Shown piece by piece: positions 10,886 through 19,775 of a DNA stretch of 64,000 bases; the stretch's first letter is position 1; each line of letters opens with the position of its first letter. Origin of the DNA: Paraphaeosphaeria minitans (lineage: Eukaryota; Ascomycota; Dothideomycetes; Pleosporales; Didymosphaeriaceae); contig WJXW01000007.1 of assembly GCA_015832175.1 (NCBI GenBank), positions 2,108,001 through 2,172,000 of the forward strand, given 5' to 3'. Position numbers and translations under genes: made by a program. The notes under the pieces were generated by a model. The model saw only the letters and a list, made by a program, of their open reading frames with translations, had not been told where the DNA came from and did no database searches.

Positions 10886-11401
10886 TTGCGAGAGCGTTGT
10901 CTTGGAGTATTTGACTGTCGGTTGTGTTCGATTATACACATCGCGCAGTCCAGGTTACAATTTCGTGGGCATTGATCACAGTAGTTGGGGAGGAGGGAGT
11001 GTAATATAGATACGACGTATACCCTAGATTCGAATCGTGGACAAGAAGGTATCTTATGGCGAACGTCTCGCTGAGGGCTTGTTTCCTACGCTGTCTTTAA
11101 ATACGTCATATTTACTGAGCAGATGTGCTAGAGTAAAGAGGACGACATGCAACGCTCAAATGAAGCTTCACGGTATGCAAGAGAAGGCGCAATGTCGGTG
11201 GGTGCGGTTGCGTGGAGCGAGTTAGCGACCGAAGGCGGGGTCGTCATCCCTCCTAAGCGAATGGCAACCCACAAAGGCCTTAAGAACACTCAACGCGCCT
11301 ATAGCATCCTGGTGCCATTGCTCTCTAATTACTGTGTTAGCAGCCATGGGTTCTGATTATAAGCATCTAATTTTCAAAGCTTCCATCAAACAAGTACAAC
11401 A
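10886..11401. other. spacer between membrane protein gene and tRNA
   Basis: Half a kilobase without a recognisable gene. The short frames here show no domain. Confidence 0.5.
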
Positions 11402-11500
11402 TCCGATATGGTCTAGTGGCTAGGATACATCGCTCTCATCTCTTCAAGCAATTGAAGCATATGCACCGATGTGGCCCGGGTTCGATTCCCGGTGTCGGAA
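11402..11500 (+). tRNA. tRNA-Glu (CTC) with intron
   Basis: A complete cloverleaf can be drawn. The acceptor stem is TCCGATA (11402-11408) with TGTCGGA (11493-11499), with one G-T pair. The D arm has the A-box-like TGGTCTAGTGGCTAGGA. The anticodon stem is CATCG (11428-11432) with CGATG (11467-11471). The T arm is CCGGGTTCGATTCCCGG (B box). The discriminator is A at 11500. The anticodon loop CT-CTC-A gives anticodon CTC at 11435-11437, so glutamate (GAG). A 27-nt intron at about 11439-11465 sits at the canonical position after base 37. Within it CTTCAA and TTGAAG pair around a GCAA loop. Confidence 0.93.
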
Positions 11501-11874: not shown

Positions 11875-12971
11875 TCACCATGCCTGTACACCAGCCGCGT
11901 TGACCACCTTGCCGGCGTCCGCATCTCTCTTCCCCTCCACAACATCCCTGATCAAAATTCCACCTAGACTTGGGTCAAGAGCACCCATCTGTTTCATCTT
12001 CTCTGGGCCCATGCCTACAAGTGTGGGGTACAAAGTCAGTGAATCGTTCAAAAAAAAGAGTATTAGGCAGAAGTAGGTTGTTTTAGCTTCAGCTCGGGAC
12101 TAAAGTCTGACATTTTCAGACAATAGTTGTAGCTGAAACAACCACTTTGTACCCCAGGAGTTCTTACCACCAAGATTCGTGGCCAGAAATCCAGGGCTGA
12201 TACAGAATACTTTGACACCGTCTTCTTTCAGGAATCTCTGCCACTCCAACATCAACATGTTCAACCCTGTCTTCGAGCTGCGGTAGGCGATCTGAGAGAG
12301 CACAGGGGGTTTTGGCCTACGAGAACAGATCAGTCAGCAAACGTTCGATCATGTCATGAGGAAAGAACTTACCAGCCTGCAGGTATGCTAGGCAGACCTG
12401 CCTTGCGGGCTGGGGAGATGGAGCTTCCGCCAGAGCAAATGTCAAGCGACGACATTCCGGACGTGACGAACAAGATCCGTGGTCCCGACGACTTGAGAAG
12501 AAGCGGGACGAGGGTGTTCGTCAAGACGTGTGTGGAGGTAACATTGAGCGAGTACGAGTGATCAAATGCCTCGCGGATTCCGGCGGGCGTAGGATTTTCT
12601 CGCATAACAGCGTCGTGAGAACCTCCTGTTGCGACTTTAGTACTAGAGCAAGCCGTGGCTGGATCTACACATCACAGGTCCTTACCAGCGTTGTTGACGA
12701 GAGCATCAAGTCTGCCGTACTTGGACTCTATCTCTTTGTTCAATTTTTCAATCGAAGCATCGTCCTCGATGTCGATTTGGATCGGAGCCACCTCGGATTT
12801 GGACTCGGTCACTTCGGACTGCAGTGTTTTGATAGCGACATAAGCCTTGTCGAGCGATCGGCTCCCCATGAGGATAACATGTGCGTCCGGCGAAGCATAA
12901 AGAGCCTTCACAGTCTCATAGCCAAGGCCCGTGTTTCCGCCTGTGACGAGGACAATGCTCTTTGCCGCCAT
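11875..12971 (-). CDS. short-chain dehydrogenase/reductase (SDR)
   Basis: Four exons on the minus strand: 12686-12971, 12373-12625, 12168-12316, 11875-12014 (275 aa). All junctions are in phase with GTAAGG, GTAAGT and GTAAGA donors. The classical SDR order is complete: the nucleotide-binding TGGNTGLG near residue 11, the acidic patch DIEDD, NNAG, the catalytic Ser region FVTSGMSS, the YRSSK catalytic pair, and the ISPGFLATN segment after it. It is a soluble NAD(P)-dependent oxidoreductase resembling carbonyl-reductase-like fungal SDRs; the substrate is unknown. The last intron (12015-12167, 153 nt) is unusually long and contains a terminal-inverted-repeat element (separate entry). Exon 4 ends with TGG TGA, which also resembles a donor, so a further exon cannot be fully excluded. 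Confidence 0.87.
12024..12156 (-). mobile_element. intron-borne TIR element A (introner/MITE-like)
   Basis: The element lies wholly inside the last intron of the dehydrogenase gene. Its ends are perfect inverted repeats: TGGGGTACAAAGT against ACTTTGTACCCCA (13 bp). In the gene's sense direction only 11 nt separate the left end from the start of the GTAAGA donor, and the right end is close to the CACTTGTAG acceptor. It contains a small hairpin, GTCTGA/TCAGAC, at about 12105-12122. Its interior aligns with element C in the ABCC gene. I see no coding capacity and no clear target-site duplication. Confidence 0.7.
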
Positions 12972-14908
12972 AATTTGCGTAAGAAGTGTAGATGAGCAGC
13001 GGATGGTTTGAATGAGTAGTAGAGTAGGCAGGCAAGATATAGACCTTTCCCTCCTAGCTTCACAGCCTTTTATACAAACAATCGTGCCTCTTACGTACAC
13101 GTATAACTTTAAACGACCCGGATCTGGGTCTGCCACTGAAGCGGGACAATAGCTGATTTAGGGCTAGCTAAATTGGCTCGTACTTGCAAAAAGAGCAAGA
13201 ACTTGCTTCCCTATTGGCTAGGAACCATCGTGTACATGATCAGGAACACTTATTCTCGTCTGCTTACTTTTCGTGGAGTTTCCGTACAATATCCGCCAAC
13301 TGTTGGATCCACCTTTGGACTCCTCTGCACGGCTTTATCGGGATTTATGAGCATCCATTCGTTGAATGTGGGGTCGGCCGCCACGGCCGCGTGGATAAAT
13401 AACACTTAACTCCGGACGGTTAATCCGGACCTCAGCCGTACTAACTCCTTGACCGTTACGATGAACGAGCACTGATTTGATAGATGCCCAGGATGCGCAG
13501 AAATAGCAATATATTGTGAGACGGTGTTCTGGCATTGGTCTTTGTAAGTTAAAGTTGCGACGAGCATCCCAACAAGGACTTGGCTAAATCGACAAACGCT
13601 GTAGGTATTCTTCTCGTGTGATTCCAACCCCACTCTCATTCGTGTCTCAAACCTACTACCTGGTATTACAACTGCAAGTGTTATAGCAGGAAGTAGAGGG
13701 AACATAAGATACGATGCAAGGTTACCTCCTATCTGAACTATGTACCTGCTGGTGTTCTCCTATCCATCATGTGTCTTGAGGTAAATTGGCACTTAATTTT
13801 CTCTTTTTTTCATAGAAAGTATGCTGATAGTACTCTGGCTTTGTCTAACAACGAAGGATGAAGTTGGTTCCCCGGAACATTTAAAAAGGAGTTTAACAAG
13901 CGCAACCTAGCCGGTGTTGCCCTTCCTAAACATTAAGACACCATCTGCGACATTCTTGTCAAACGCAATTAGCTTGCTAACGACGATGCCAATAGGCAGA
14001 CGACTATCGGCCTAATGCTATATCGTAAGGCGTACTGAAAGGTTAAGAAGATTGGCGCGACTACTCTTATGCTTTCAGTAATAGCTTTGATAAGAGTTTT
14101 GCCTTAGTTGAAGGTGTTGATGCGGCTGAGACATAGTGGCAATTGGTTCTGTAGCAAGGCTAGGTATAGTAGTTTGCTACTCGGTTTGAGCACATATTCG
14201 TGACGCACAAGAAATTGTCTGACGTGTGACTATTAGAGTTAAGAACCTTGAAGTGGCTAGATCTTATAGTTGTATTCCCTGCCTCTTGCAGTCATGCAGG
14301 TAATATGCGACAGTGAAAACTTTTCGTTCGCGGTTGCCTATTACTCGCCGACTGCCTTAGCAGTACTTTGACAGTAGAGTCAACTGCGTTGAGCCAGCAG
14401 TCTTTTGTCAGAATCGGAACCGGTGAAGCTGCTGATAATAGTTCATACATTGGTTGCGCATGAAGAACAAAGCTCTTGTTCATGTCGTTTATCGTACCTA
14501 TCTGAGGCAAAGCTTTTGGTGTGTACGATTCTCCAATACACCAGTCTTGCAGCATTATTGAGAAAGTCTGGCAGCGGCTTCGGGCATCAAAGGATTGCAA
14601 CTAGGATCAGTCAACAGAGAAGCACAGATAATGCTCACGACAAAGCGATGGCCTGAGTCAAACGAATACTCATGTGGCGTGGGGCAGGAAGGATCATGCA
14701 GTTCGTGCTTGCCCAAAACAGCAAGGCGGCTCTTTTAGGGCGTGCTTGTGCGCCGGAACCGTTGAGGCTGTTCACCGACATCACTCCGCTCCTCGTCGTT
14801 TATCGCTGGTGCCTAGCCATTTCTTTTAAAAGCTCTACATGATAGCCCCCTTCGATCCAAGCTTCATATTGCTGGCGCGCAGGTGGAAGGAGGTTTCCAC
14901 AGGCTGCA
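12972..14908. other. gene-poor, AT-richer region
   Basis: 1.9 kb between the start of the dehydrogenase and the ABCC gene, which point away from each other. No intact gene is visible. The central part (about 13700-14300) is AT-richer and contains the decayed reading frame listed separately. A minus-strand frame at 14292-14600 shows no family I recognise. Confidence 0.5.
13885..14110 (+). pseudogene. stop-riddled ORF remnant, possible RIP-mutated repeat
   Basis: One plus frame reads like a protein (FNKRNLAGVALP, then DTICDILVKRN, then LANDDANRQTTIGLMLYRKAY, then KVKKIGATTLMLSVIALIRVLP) but is broken by TAA, TAG, TGA and TAG. Each stop could come from a Gln or Arg codon by a C-to-T change, which is the pattern left by repeat-induced point mutation. 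The surrounding DNA is AT-richer than the genes. I cannot name the parent element, and chance cannot be ruled out. Confidence 0.3.
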
Positions 14909-17900
14909 ATGGCGTACGCACAGATCCTGATGACGCTGAACCCGGGGAATGTCAGCCAGGGCGTTCCACCATTGGCTCGGTGCCACAGTCTTTGGGTAGG
15001 TACAGTCTTAATTCTTGGAATGCCAGGAACAGGAACGCCACTAATATTGCGAAGGATAACCAAACAGCTCGCTTCACGCCTTGTGCGCTACCATATGTCG
15101 CCACTTTCCCGGCCATCCTAGGCGGAATTGTGCTATTGACTTATTCTCTACGAATTTTCGACGCTTACAAGCCAAAATGGATGAAGTCATTCATCACGGA
15201 AGAGAAAGAGAGCTCAGACGAGCTGCTCTCTACGTTCTGGAGGCAGCCTCTGTCTGCGACATTCGGGCTTCTAGTGGTTTCGATGATTGGACTCACGATG
15301 CAGCTCTTAGCCAGTTTTCTCCCCGTTCTTTATTATAGTGGGATATATCCTTCAGTTGCTTGGGTAAGACATATATGTCGTTTTTGATACATGAGCTTAC
15401 CGGTCCAGGTAATCGCCATCAGTATTATTGTCATTGAGCGCCCAAGGGCGGCTTCACTCTCACTCATAACTCTGTATACTGGACTGCTTCTTGAGCGGCT
15501 CGTCGTGCTCTCTCATGGGTCACAATTGGTACCATTGTTCGCGCTGGATTTCCTGGCAGCATTAGCGGCATTGCTTGGCATGTTGGTCGTCCTTAATATG
15601 CCTCTGCGCGATCCAGTTCTGTCGCGTGAGGGCATCAGTCCCGTCGGTACTGCGCCGACCGTCGACTTGCGGACGCCAGAAGACAATCTTACCCCTTTCC
15701 AATACATGACTGTGTCATGGATGAGACCTCTGATTAATAAAGGGAAGACCCGAGAGATGAGCGATGCAGACGTTTGGGATTTAGGATACGAATACAAGCA
15801 CGAGCGACTCCACAACACGTTTCGTGTGCTTAAAGGCTCTGTAACGAAGCGTGTATTCTTTGCCAACGGCATAGATCTGCTCATTACCACGTTATTGGGG
15901 CTTCTCCAACTGGCTCTCACATTGGCAATCCCTGTACTACTACAGCAGTTGCTTGCGAGCATGCAAGGCTCGAACCCTAACGGCAACGCCACCATTACAT
16001 ATGCCTGTATTGCGTTGTTCTTCCGCTTGCTCAATGCTCAGACCCAGGTGTTCGTTATCTGGCATCAGAGAAGGGCTTATGAGCGGTCACGGGGCGAGAT
16101 GATCACAATGCTTTTCGAAAAGACTCTCAATAGAAAGATCTTGGGCGCAAAGCAAAAGCCAGAAGAGCAGCCCAACGGGCACATCAACGGAGATCTAGAT
16201 GAAGCCGCCAATGGCCACATCGAGGAAGAATCTGCCAAAGGACGCACATGGCCAGGCCATGTTCGATGGGCTTTCTTAGGCCCACTTTTGTTCATTCAGA
16301 ACCTCTTTGCGAAGAAACCGGCGGAGCCAGAAAAGAAAGATGACGAAGCTGCATCTATGGGAAAGATTCTGAACCTTATGCGAAATGATGTATATGAGGT
16401 GTCTCAGCGCTTCTGGGAATTCTCCGGTACGATCCCCCCCGGTACAAAGTCGTTATGTTTTAGACAAGTTGTACACAAAATCATTTTTATGACTCAGCTG
16501 ACTTTGTACCCGTGAGTATAGACATAATCACAAAACCAGTAGGGGTTATCTTTGCGACACTCCTCATCTGGAGGATGCTCGGATGGGCCTGCTTGCTGGG
16601 AGTTCTAGCATTGTTTGTCACCCAATCGCTCAATGTCGTCCTCGCTCGCTACAAAGTGTATTTTGAGAAGAAGCGTAGAGTTGCTACAGACGAAAAGCTG
16701 CAGCGGATTAATCAATTCATCGAATCGATCCGGCACTTGCGCTGGTATGGTTGGCAGGATTCGTGGTTGAACGGAATACTCGAATCGCGCCAAAAGGAAC
16801 TGCACCTCCGCGTCATACTGATCGTTTTCGAAACAACATTGGCTTTCGTGGTCAAGTTTGGTGTTGGTATGTTTCCCCTGGTCGCATTCTACGCATACAC
16901 GAAGTTATCTGGTAAATCCCTCCGCGTCGACCTTATCTTTCCGGCTATCGACTTGTTCAACCTCTTGGATTCTTATCTCCGCGAGCTGCCCAGAATGGTT
17001 ACGACATTGCTCAATGCGTATGTCGCAATGGGTCGAATTGAGTCATTCATGCAAGAACCCGACAAAGAAGAGAACGACATGGTTCCAGAAGGCACCGCTG
17101 AATTGAGCTTCTCAAATGCCTCCTTCGCTTGGCCTGGCGTAGAGAAAATGGTATTGAGCAACATCACTCTAGCATTTCCACGTGGCCTTACTGTCATATA
17201 CGGAGAGGTGGCATCGGGCAAGACAGCTCTTCTGCAGGCCCTTCTAGGAGAGCTCGACAAGACTGCTGGCGAATTCGTACAACCGGATGAAGTCATCGGA
17301 TACTGTGCTCAAACGCCCTGGCTGCAAAGCATGAGCATTCGAGAGAACATCCTCTTCTCGTGTCCATACGAGGAAGGACGCTACAAGCAGGTTCTTGAAG
17401 CATGTGCACTTCTTCCTGACATGGCTGAATTCAAATCTGGAGATCTTTCCAATATTGGTGAGAATGGAATCGGCCTCTCAGGTGGGCAGAAGGCTCGAGT
17501 AGCGCTCGCACGTGCGGTGTATAGTCCGGCGAAAGTAATCATGCTCGACGACCCACTCTCGGCGCTTGATCATCAGACCGCAGAGGCCATCGTTCGCAAA
17601 CTACTTGCTGGCCCACTCATGGCCGAACGCACTATTATATTGGTCACTCACCGAACCGAGCTCTGCCACGGTATTGCAAAGCAGTGGGTAGAATTGATTC
17701 ACGGCAAAGTTACGATCCATGAGCCTGCTCCCGAAGAAGAAAACGCGCTCAAACGCCAGGAGACCCAAGAATCAATTTCGGAAGAAGAAGCCAAGAAGCG
17801 CGAGGAAGCCCAGGCAGCCGCTGTGCCAGATAAGTTCATTGAAGATGAGTACCGTGCGACCGGGACCGTCAAGCTCCAAGTCTACTGGCGATATATCAGA

Positions 17901-19775
17901 GCTGGAACCTTCCTCTGGTGGTCCGTTGCGATTTTCGTCATGGTTCTCTATCGTTTTGTAGATATTGGTCAAGGATGGTATATCAAAGCGTGGGGCGAAG
18001 GATACGAGCATGATCATTCGAGAGGCACATTTCATTTCCTCCCACCTCCTGGCCAGGACGTTGTACCTTGGCTCGTCGGATTCTTTGTCATCGCTTGCAT
18101 CACGTCCGTGACGTTCTGGTGGGTCTACATTGTCATGTACGGCGTCGGGTACCAAGCGGCGAAGACGATCTTTAAAGAGGCCATCGACAAAGTTGCGCAT
18201 GCTACGTTTCGTTTCTACGACGTCACGCCAGTAGGGAGACTGATGAACCGGCTTACATCGGACATGAACACCATCGATGGACATCTGAGTTTCATCTTCA
18301 CAATCGTAATATGGCAGGCCGTCGGCTTCGTCAGTTCGATCGTAATCATCTTGACTGCAGCCCCGGCCTTCTTGGCTTTCGGAGTCGTTCTTAGTTCATG
18401 CTATGTGTACTACTTCAGACTATTCTTGCCAACTTCTCAGACGCTGCGTCGTCTTGAGGTAAGAACCTCTCCATTCGTCCACTCAAGTTGCTAACTCTGT
18501 ACAGATGGTGTCACTCTCCCCATTGATGTCCAACTTCGGCGCCCTTGTTGAAGGCCTCACTACAGTCCGCGCCTTCTCCGCCCAGCCACGCTTCCAATCC
18601 AACGTGATCACTGTTGTGGACAGCTTCCAGAGACAGGACCACTTTTACTGGGTACGGACCCCTGGGGTGCAAAGTGGGTGTTTTTCTGCTGTGTCTATTG
18701 TCTGAAACTGTCAGACAAGCTAAAGCTAAAACACCTACTCCCAACCTATCTTCCTTGATATTTGTACACTTCACTGACTTCGTACCATCCGCTTTAGTCC
18801 CTGCAAGCCTGGCTCGGCCTCCGCTTCTCATCATTATCCGCCTCCTCAACTCTCGCCATGGCCATCATTGCAGTCTACACAGGCATTTCGCCCGGACTTA
18901 CCGCCTTCGTCCTCATCACCGCAAGCAAATTCGTCATCCAAACCGAACAGCTCTGCAAGATCTACGGCCAGCTTGAAATGGACTTCACCAGCGTCGAGCG
19001 CGTCGTCGAGCTGCTCGACCTCGAAACCGAGGCTCCCGGCGTCGTCAACCCGCCCGCACATTGGCCCACCTACACCGGCGACATCGTCTTCGAGAACGTC
19101 ACCATCCGGTACGCGCCGAACCTCGACCCTGCGCTGCACGACATCAGCCTGCGGATCCCTGCGGGCTCGCACACAGCCGTCATCGGGCGCACAGGTAGCG
19201 GCAAGTCGACCCTCGCGCTCTGCCTCCTTGCCACCATCGCACCCGAGGCGGGCCAAATCTTCATCGACGGCGTCGACATCGGCACCGTCAACAAGCAGGC
19301 GCTGCGCAACCGCGTAACGTTCCTGGCGCAAGAGCCCGTCCTCTTCCCCGGCTCCATGCGCAAGAACCTCGACCCCCTCGACGAATACAGCGACGCAGCT
19401 TGCGAAGCCGTGCTCTCCAAGATTGCCGGGAACCACGACTGGACGCTCTCGACCTCCGTCGAGGGCGGCGGGAAGGGTCTTTCTCAGGGGCAGCGTCAGC
19501 TCGTTGGTCTCGCGCGCGCGATGCTGCGAAGGAGTCCGGTGCTCATCATGGACGAAGCCACGGCTTCCATCGATTTTGAAACCGCGCAACGCATACAGAG
19601 TGTGCTGCGGGAGGAGATGCGGGAGAGTACCGTGATCACGATTGCGCATCGGTTGGAGGCGGTGCGAAATGCAGATTATTGCGTCGTGCTGGGGAAGGGG
19701 AAGTTGGTGAAGGCTGGAAAGGCGGTGGACATGTTGAGGGAAGGGGGTGAGTTTACTGGGATGTTGGCGCAGTAA
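14909..19775 (+). CDS. ABC transporter, ABCC/MRP type (full length)
   Basis: Six exons: 14909-14995, 15055-15363, 15409-16426, 16522-18458, 18505-18651, 18798-19775 (1491 aa); all phases close. Order: an N-terminal membrane region (TMD0-like, residues 40-220), the first ABC transmembrane domain with a charged insert, NBD1, a charged linker, the second transmembrane domain, and NBD2. NBD1 has Walker A GEVASGKTALL, signature LSGGQKARVALARA and Walker B VIMLDDPLSALD. NBD2 has GRTGSGKSTLAL, LSQGQRQLVGLARA, VLIMDEATASID and the H-loop AHR. The first Walker A is slightly unusual (GEVAS where GPVGS is common). Such proteins export glutathione conjugates, drugs or metabolites from vacuolar or plasma membranes. 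Introns 3 and 5 (95 and 146 nt) each carry a TIR element; the other three introns are 45-59 nt. Confidence 0.92.
16440..16512 (+). mobile_element. intron-borne TIR element B
   Basis: A 73-nt element inside ABCC intron 3 (16427-16521), bounded by GGTACAAAGTC and GACTTTGTACC. It shares the end sequences of elements A and C but is shorter, and its interior does not clearly align with theirs. Only about 13 nt and 9 nt of host intron lie outside it. It follows a run of seven C residues. Confidence 0.65.
18663..18788 (+). mobile_element. intron-borne TIR element C
   Basis: A 126-nt element inside ABCC intron 5 (18652-18797), with ends TGGGGTGCAAAGT and ACTTCGTACCATC, diverged copies of the element A ends. 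Its interior aligns with element A in the same orientation relative to transcription. Shared blocks include CTATTGTCTGAAA and TGTCAGAC (18695-18716), AGCTAAAAC, CCTACT and TTCACTGACTT. It leaves 11 nt of host intron on the 5' side and 9 nt on the 3' side. Confidence 0.7.

Follow-up and report, generated by a model that had tools for sequence, protein, structure and literature searches.

Near-terminal inverted repeats in two families of introner-like elements of Paraphaeosphaeria minitans, and a possible 4-bp target-site duplication in one of them

Three introns in a 64,000-nucleotide (nt) stretch of the ascomycete Paraphaeosphaeria minitans (contig WJXW01000007.1; the whole stretch is hereafter the window) each carry a pair of inverted repeats, which raises the question whether they are ordinary introns, old introns entered by a mobile element, or mobile elements that have themselves become introns. 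The three, termed A, B and C, lie in a short-chain dehydrogenase gene and an ABCC-type transporter gene. Together with the two families of similar introns found across the genome, they are almost certainly introner-like elements. Moreover, A, B and C are probably whole spliceosomal introns, gained by insertion of a small non-autonomous mobile element into coding exons. Their features are as follows.

12015 to 12167, minus strand: intron A, a full-length family-1 introner-like element of 153 nt (GTAAGA...TTGTAG) in the short-chain dehydrogenase gene
12144 to 12155, minus strand: 5' near-terminal inverted repeat of intron A, GGGGTACAAAGT, 0 mismatches
12025 to 12036, plus strand: 3' near-terminal inverted repeat of intron A, sense reading ACTTTGTACCCC, 0 mismatches
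12035 to 12039, minus strand: likely branch point CTGAC of intron A, assigned from its sequence and overlapping the 3' repeat, 21 nt from its A to the intron end
16427 to 16521, plus strand: intron B, a short divergent family-1-like element of 95 nt (GTACGA...TATAG) in the ABCC transporter gene
16439 to 16450, plus strand: 5' near-terminal inverted repeat of intron B, CCGGTACAAAGT, 2 mismatches
16501 to 16512, minus strand: 3' near-terminal inverted repeat of intron B, 1 mismatch
18652 to 18797, plus strand: intron C, a full-length family-1 element of 146 nt (GTACGG...CTTTAG) in the ABCC gene
18664 to 18675, plus strand: 5' near-terminal inverted repeat of intron C, GGGGTGCAAAGT, 1 mismatch
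18777 to 18788, minus strand: 3' near-terminal inverted repeat of intron C, 3 mismatches

The original prediction had singled out these three introns by their repeats, and both hold up: the introns are present where it placed them, and the repeats exceed chance, with 27 genomic matches to the pattern GGGTACAAAGTNNNT, while the reversed control has two. The 27 include both arms of A, and seven of the 27 loci (L001, L003, L009, L014, L017, L022 and L026) fit neither family model. The alignment of A and C, earlier noticed for most of their length, covers the full length of both, with the orientation to transcription being the same. Under the family-1 model R1, A reaches 162 bits and C 128 bits, both being among its 15 training copies, and B, outside the training set, 26 bits (E 0.0032 over the loci searched, which is rough, like all E-values of these home-made models). 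Neither family model matches any further copy in the window.

Searches of the 47.45-Mb assembly of 30 contigs used patterns, DNA and protein only, which makes the copy numbers lower bounds. Searching by homology with element A, and with another element from among the pattern matches, gave two related sets. Family 1, with the consensus GTACGNACNNCTGGGGTACAAAGTGGTTGTTTTCTGCTG ... TTCACTGACTTTGTACCCCACACTTTAG, has at least 21 copies, including A, C and the divergent B, and family 2, with the consensus GTGAGTAAACCACCGGGTACAAAGTGGATGTGTC ... CTTAACTCACACTGACTTTGTATCCGTACCTTAG, has at least 53 copies with GT-AG ends. A 21-base piece of family 2 has 62 genomic matches compared to one for its control, of which 43 belong to full-length GT-AG copies, 10 to full-length ones lacking these ends and 9 to places where no full-length match exists. 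A 24-base piece from the family-2 3' end gives 37 matches versus 0, a further genome pattern 10 versus 0, and two looser 5' pieces 29 versus 9 and 109 versus 49. Identity between copies reaches at most 90% in family 2 and 84% in family 1 (medians 65% and 64%), so recent movement is unlikely in either family.

The tests below cover 89 full-length copies, 73 of them with GT-AG ends (20 of family 1 and 53 of family 2); one family-1 copy found later stands outside them, and 10 partial model matches were omitted ahead of counting. The 16 full-length copies without GT-AG ends all belong to family 2 and were left out of the coding and target-site duplication (TSD) tests. Copy L111 carried a wrong 3' splice site in the frame, Pfam, folding, per-position TSD, cluster and model-distance tests, which was corrected from the joint test of positions 3 and 4 onward.

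Several copies are unusual in their ends or surroundings. A family-2 copy at L104:328-449 (minus strand) has GC-AG ends (GCAAGC...CTTCAG). At L062:1318-1588 (minus strand), a family-2 and a family-1 element are separated by only 18 nt, and splicing of both would leave an 18-nt exon. L082 (G000:C5, about 1805300-1806920) holds three family-2 matches plus one other pattern match within about 1.6 kb, in the same gene or in neighbouring genes, and one flank there codes for a low-complexity repetitive protein. Apparent nested or tandem copies occur at L011:1428-1529 (minus strand), L096:331-441 and L007:1326-1509, where a family-2 3' end, direct or inverted, adjoins another copy. Contig C15 (G000:C15:86726, 1152976, 804564 and 950979) holds two pairs of identical 18-mers resembling the 5' repeat, of which the one at 86726 (L126) has no model match.

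Near-terminal repeats are present in both families, the family-2 consensus arms being CGGGTACAAAGT and, reversed, CGGATACAAAGT. At the consensus level these are terminal inverted repeats (TIRs) whose arms lie 9-14 nt inside the splice sites, and 9 of 20 single family-1 copies exceed the 99th percentile of their shuffles for such arms. A branch-point motif CTRAC is found 10-40 nt before the intron end in 19 of 20 family-1 and 48 of 53 family-2 copies, mostly with 19-21 nt following its A.

Beside a family-2 match, L018:1330-1508 holds a tandem array of 10.5 units of the 17-nt branch-point segment (CACTGACTTCTAACTCA, 98% matches), in which the branch-point motif is multiplied.

The similarity among copies stops at the splice sites. 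In the 20 family-1 copies, intron positions 3-13 hold 0.83 bit per site and the last 12 positions, without the AG, 0.46 bit, compared to 0.03-0.04 bit in the exon flanks. In family 2 (52 of the 53 copies, one having no flank), the corresponding values are 0.81 bit and 0.68 bit, against 0.034 bit in the upstream exon, 0.44 bit at downstream exon positions +1 to +4 and 0.03 bit beyond. The flanks of different copies are unrelated, save for neighbouring copies and two stretches of 20-30 nt, and the 5' splice-site context is common to copies in different genes. Since conservation ends at the splice sites, the element comprises the entire intron, including the 9-14 nt beyond the repeats that had been taken for 9-13 nt of host sequence. 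Introns in different genes that resemble each other over their whole width, of which five are enough to speak of introners, thus number 20 GT-AG copies in family 1 and 53 in family 2.

The copies also behave as introns in their reading frames. The 150-nt flanks of 64 GT-AG copies were joined as if spliced, and 45 of the resulting 300-nt joins are open throughout, compared to 18 and 19 for joins shifted by 1 and 2 nt, 16 for the antisense strand and only one for the unspliced sequence. Removal of a single GT-AG intron retains the frame. Thirty joined products, picked for likely domains out of 48, were compared with Pfam (E 0.001 or better, at least five residues on each side): a match spans the junction in 18 of them, in 13 of these above Pfam's own cut-off, reaches no further than the junction in seven, and is lacking in five. 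Judged by sequence, the copies would be spliced functionally and in sense orientation from mostly unrelated genes, as expected of the introner-like family that the original prediction had proposed.

For A, B and C, database proteins of P. minitans agree with the splicing. The two host genes are these.

11875 to 12972, minus strand: short-chain dehydrogenase gene, host of intron A, with a Pfam adh_short match ending at the junction
14830 to 19775, plus strand: ABCC-type transporter gene, host of introns B and C, start codon not fixed

At the junction of intron A, the spliced product is identical to the annotated P. minitans protein P0001, and nine homologous proteins from nine fungi, P0001 included, align without a gap. 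The dehydrogenase product matches the P. minitans protein at 99%, and the gene model is four residues longer than P0001 at another, ordinary intron. The junctions of B and C fall within Pfam ABC_membrane matches of 26.8 bits, just missing the cut-off of 28, and 19.9 bits, missing the same cut-off. The P. minitans protein P0121 shows 100% identity to query residues 430-1290, a stretch that contains both junctions, and the ABCC gene minus four introns, B and C included, is a single open frame of 1537 codons from stop to stop.

How the elements entered their exons can be approached through family 2, in which the beginning of the intron resembles the beginning of the downstream exon. At base 3 the intron agrees with the exon in 25 of the 53 copies and at base 4 in 30, compared to 16.6 and 21.5 after permutation (P 0.005 and 0.0012), and the two positions jointly give 55 matches in 106 versus 38.2 (P 3e-5). 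At positions 5, 6 and 7 the exon match is at chance (P 0.44, 0.38 and 0.95; n=53). The joint signal is kept within age strata (P 0.0001 to 0.002), within similarity clusters (P 0 to 0.0044) and after thinning to 30 copies more than 25% apart (P 0.007). Where a copy and its nearest relative differ in their 5' ends, the exon matches its own intron by 21 to 7 (P 0.006), or by 19 to 8 in another alignment (P 0.026). Relatedness of the copies as the whole cause is rejected by the cluster-restricted, thinned and nearest-relative tests, and copy age as the whole cause by the age strata. In addition, the exon match declines with distance from the family model (rho 0.41, P 0.002), a score that includes those first bases.

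For comparison, 78 ordinary introns were picked by rule, a set that may include false introns and has G at exon +1 in 26%. They show no association at positions 3 and 4 (33 of 156 versus 37.8), and in none of them are the first four bases of intron and exon equal, compared to 10 of 53 family-2 copies. The downstream exon starts with G in 14 of 20 family-1 and 45 of 53 family-2 copies, and with GT in 25 of 53 family-2 copies versus 11 of the 78 rule-picked introns.

Such a match could be the partial signature of a 4-bp TSD that supplies the 5' splice site. An inverted repeat close to each of its ends (CGGGTACAAAGT and its complement), a branch point within the 3' repeat and the 3' splice site would all be part of the element. 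In family 2, insertion would occur at the DNA level, most likely by a 4-bp staggered cut that duplicates the target GTRA (or GTGC). The element proper would begin at intron base 5 with GT, and the upstream target copy together with this GT would make up the 5' splice site GTRA|GT, reading GTRAGT. Splicing would then remove one target copy and restore the exon. Family 1 has a conserved 5' end that is part of the element (GTACG or GTAAG), and it may exploit those same ends through a different route.

Several observations weigh against a duplication of this kind. More than half of the family-2 downstream exons (28 of 53) lack the initial GT, and in 12 of the 16 non-GT exons with one clear frame exon base 2 is the first or second base of its codon, which leaves silent change unable to account for the missing GT. 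Position 3 alone is not significant in the nearest-relative comparison (6 to 4, with 13 to 4 for position 4). When 574 offset pairs were scanned, two offsets without TSD meaning (z 4.75 and 4.70) came out above the TSD offset, which is third (z 4.68), and the null is therefore not clean; codon phase and copy age might lie behind the two higher offsets, though this is a guess. The family-2 copies without GT-AG ends have, by eye, no convincing duplication, and family 1 gives no TSD signal (n=20; 8 of 40 versus 9.9, P 0.91). The repeats of single family-2 copies are also worn down almost to background, with a score of 11.45 versus 10.38 when shuffled and one of 53 above the 99th percentile of shuffles. 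As to an autonomous partner, no convergent repeat pair around a larger element was seen by eye among the matches listed, and no transposase search was made. Given the missing GT, the offset scan, position 3, the non-GT-AG copies and family 1, our preference for a TSD as the source of the exon match is a slight one.

Insertion of family 2 at the DNA level with a 4-bp duplication is accordingly favoured here only by some margin of likelihood, and we infer both a transposase and a mechanistic link between the two families, of which family 1 may have inserted by a different route. The idea that the TIRs hint at a DNA transposon, namely a miniature inverted-repeat transposable element (MITE), may be right: the repeats are real at the consensus level and family 2 has a statistical 4-bp duplication, but family 1 has none, the pattern matches listed gave no autonomous partner, and proliferating introns with near-terminal inverted repeats had already been reported as stwintrons in Xylariales (PMC8469720, PMC12403724).

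The alternative that fares best, which we think unlikely but worth serious attention, is an RNA-level origin, in which the intron, once excised, enters DNA by reverse splicing or as a copy made during break repair, and the repeats form a stem that shields or shapes the RNA. The GTRA downstream of family-2 copies would then reflect a preference for targets that resemble a 5' splice site or offer microhomology, instead of a duplication. Seamless insertion and introns on the sense strand fit this route, which is also the one favoured for fungal introners and TIR-bearing stwintrons in PMC8469720 and PMC12403724. It would suit family 1 in particular, which has no TSD, folds better than its shuffled sequences (mean z -2.05) and contains an internal palindrome: R1 matches the opposite strand of several copies over about positions 14-104, and that of A and C at model positions 15-103. 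Folding of family 2, however, hardly exceeds that of its shuffles (mean z -0.68). Nor do the repeat arms pair better within a copy than between copies, either in family 1 (16.25 for the own copy versus 16.0 for others, P 0.31) or in family 2 (11.45 versus 12.01, P 0.97). Given this lack of compensatory change within copies, an RNA stem under selection after insertion is rejected; the stem is probably not maintained there, and the inverted repeat seems to belong to the moving form. Finally, a shared target preference alone does not make an exon match its own intron rather than that of the nearest relative.

A MITE that inserts preferentially into pre-existing introns, which the original prediction had allowed for, would place repeat-bearing elements in introns as found here. 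We regard it as very improbable and discard it, because the similarity among copies stops at both splice sites: conservation runs through them and the 9-14 nt outside the repeats, intron positions 3-13 are not host sequence, and the 5' splice-site context is shared between genes. Ordinary old introns made alike by shared splice signals or gene duplication, which the median divergence of the copies would suit since they are not recent, are more improbable still in view of whole-length homology between unrelated flanks, the excess of matches to the family-2 pieces over their controls and a deep ABCC paralogue on contig C8 with one open frame across position B (26% identity, so weak).

Elsewhere in the window, a sequence at positions 11400-11500 resembles, by eye, a tRNA that contains an internal insertion; ARAGORN (bacterial code) called no tRNA in the window.

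Introner-like elements of Dothideomycetes were reportedly described by van der Burgt in 2012, and introners derived from DNA transposons, with TIRs and/or TSDs, are said to have been described by Huff in 2016. Fungal introner-like elements are established according to Collemare 2015 (PMC4457414). In Fulvia fulva, Dothistroma and other Dothideomycetes, they are similar whole introns that multiplied into different genes, degenerate with age and form several families per genome, which also holds for the elements of P. minitans. The latter belong to a different order and differ in sequence (the sequences themselves were not compared), and family 2 has an exact 4-base exon signature that co-varies with the 5' bases of the intron.

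Compared to the introners of DNA-transposon type, as treated in Gozashti 2022 (PMC9860276), the elements of P. minitans likewise have inverted repeats, and likewise one splice site would be carried by the element and the other come from the TSD; in Symbiodinium, the TSD is 4 bp and the element carries the 3' site. Differences lie in the ascomycete host, the near-terminal position of the repeats and the partial nature of the TSD signal. The same paper reports that 72 of 177 introner families have TIRs and 49 of 130 have TSDs, with ascomycete families having neither.

The sister stwintrons of Hypoxylaceae and Xylariaceae (Xylariales), as described in PMC8469720 (2021) and PMC12403724 (2025), are also proliferating fungal introns with terminal or near-terminal inverted repeats of 9-10 nt, seamless insertion and function on the coding strand only. 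They are, however, twin introns with neither TSD nor exon bias, whereas those of P. minitans read as single GT-AG introns in which family 2 has an exon bias at +1 to +4 only. Reverse splicing has been argued for fungal introner-like elements, as cited in PMC8469720. The present inverted repeats thus add another fungal example, the novelty lying in the 4-bp signature. A search of the open-licence literature found no paper on introners in Paraphaeosphaeria.

Taken together, we tentatively propose, with slightly less than even confidence, that the two are sister families with shared repeats and differing sources of the 5' splice site. Family 2 would combine a 4-bp TSD (GTRA) with its own GT, and family 1 would bring its own site beside a long hairpin. 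Such an arrangement would stand midway between a DNA transposon and a mobile intron complete in itself. Family 2 would then be, to our knowledge, the first ascomycete introner with both TIR and TSD.

The origin of new introns is an open question, and ascomycetes are the group reported without DNA-transposon signatures (PMC9860276). If true, the combination of inverted repeats with a 4-bp duplication serving as 5' splice site in a fungal family would mean that the mechanism known from other eukaryotes also covers at least some fungal introners. The ABCC stretch is 96% identical between P. minitans and its sister P. sporulosa, and comparison of filled and empty sites between these two species makes the mechanism directly testable.

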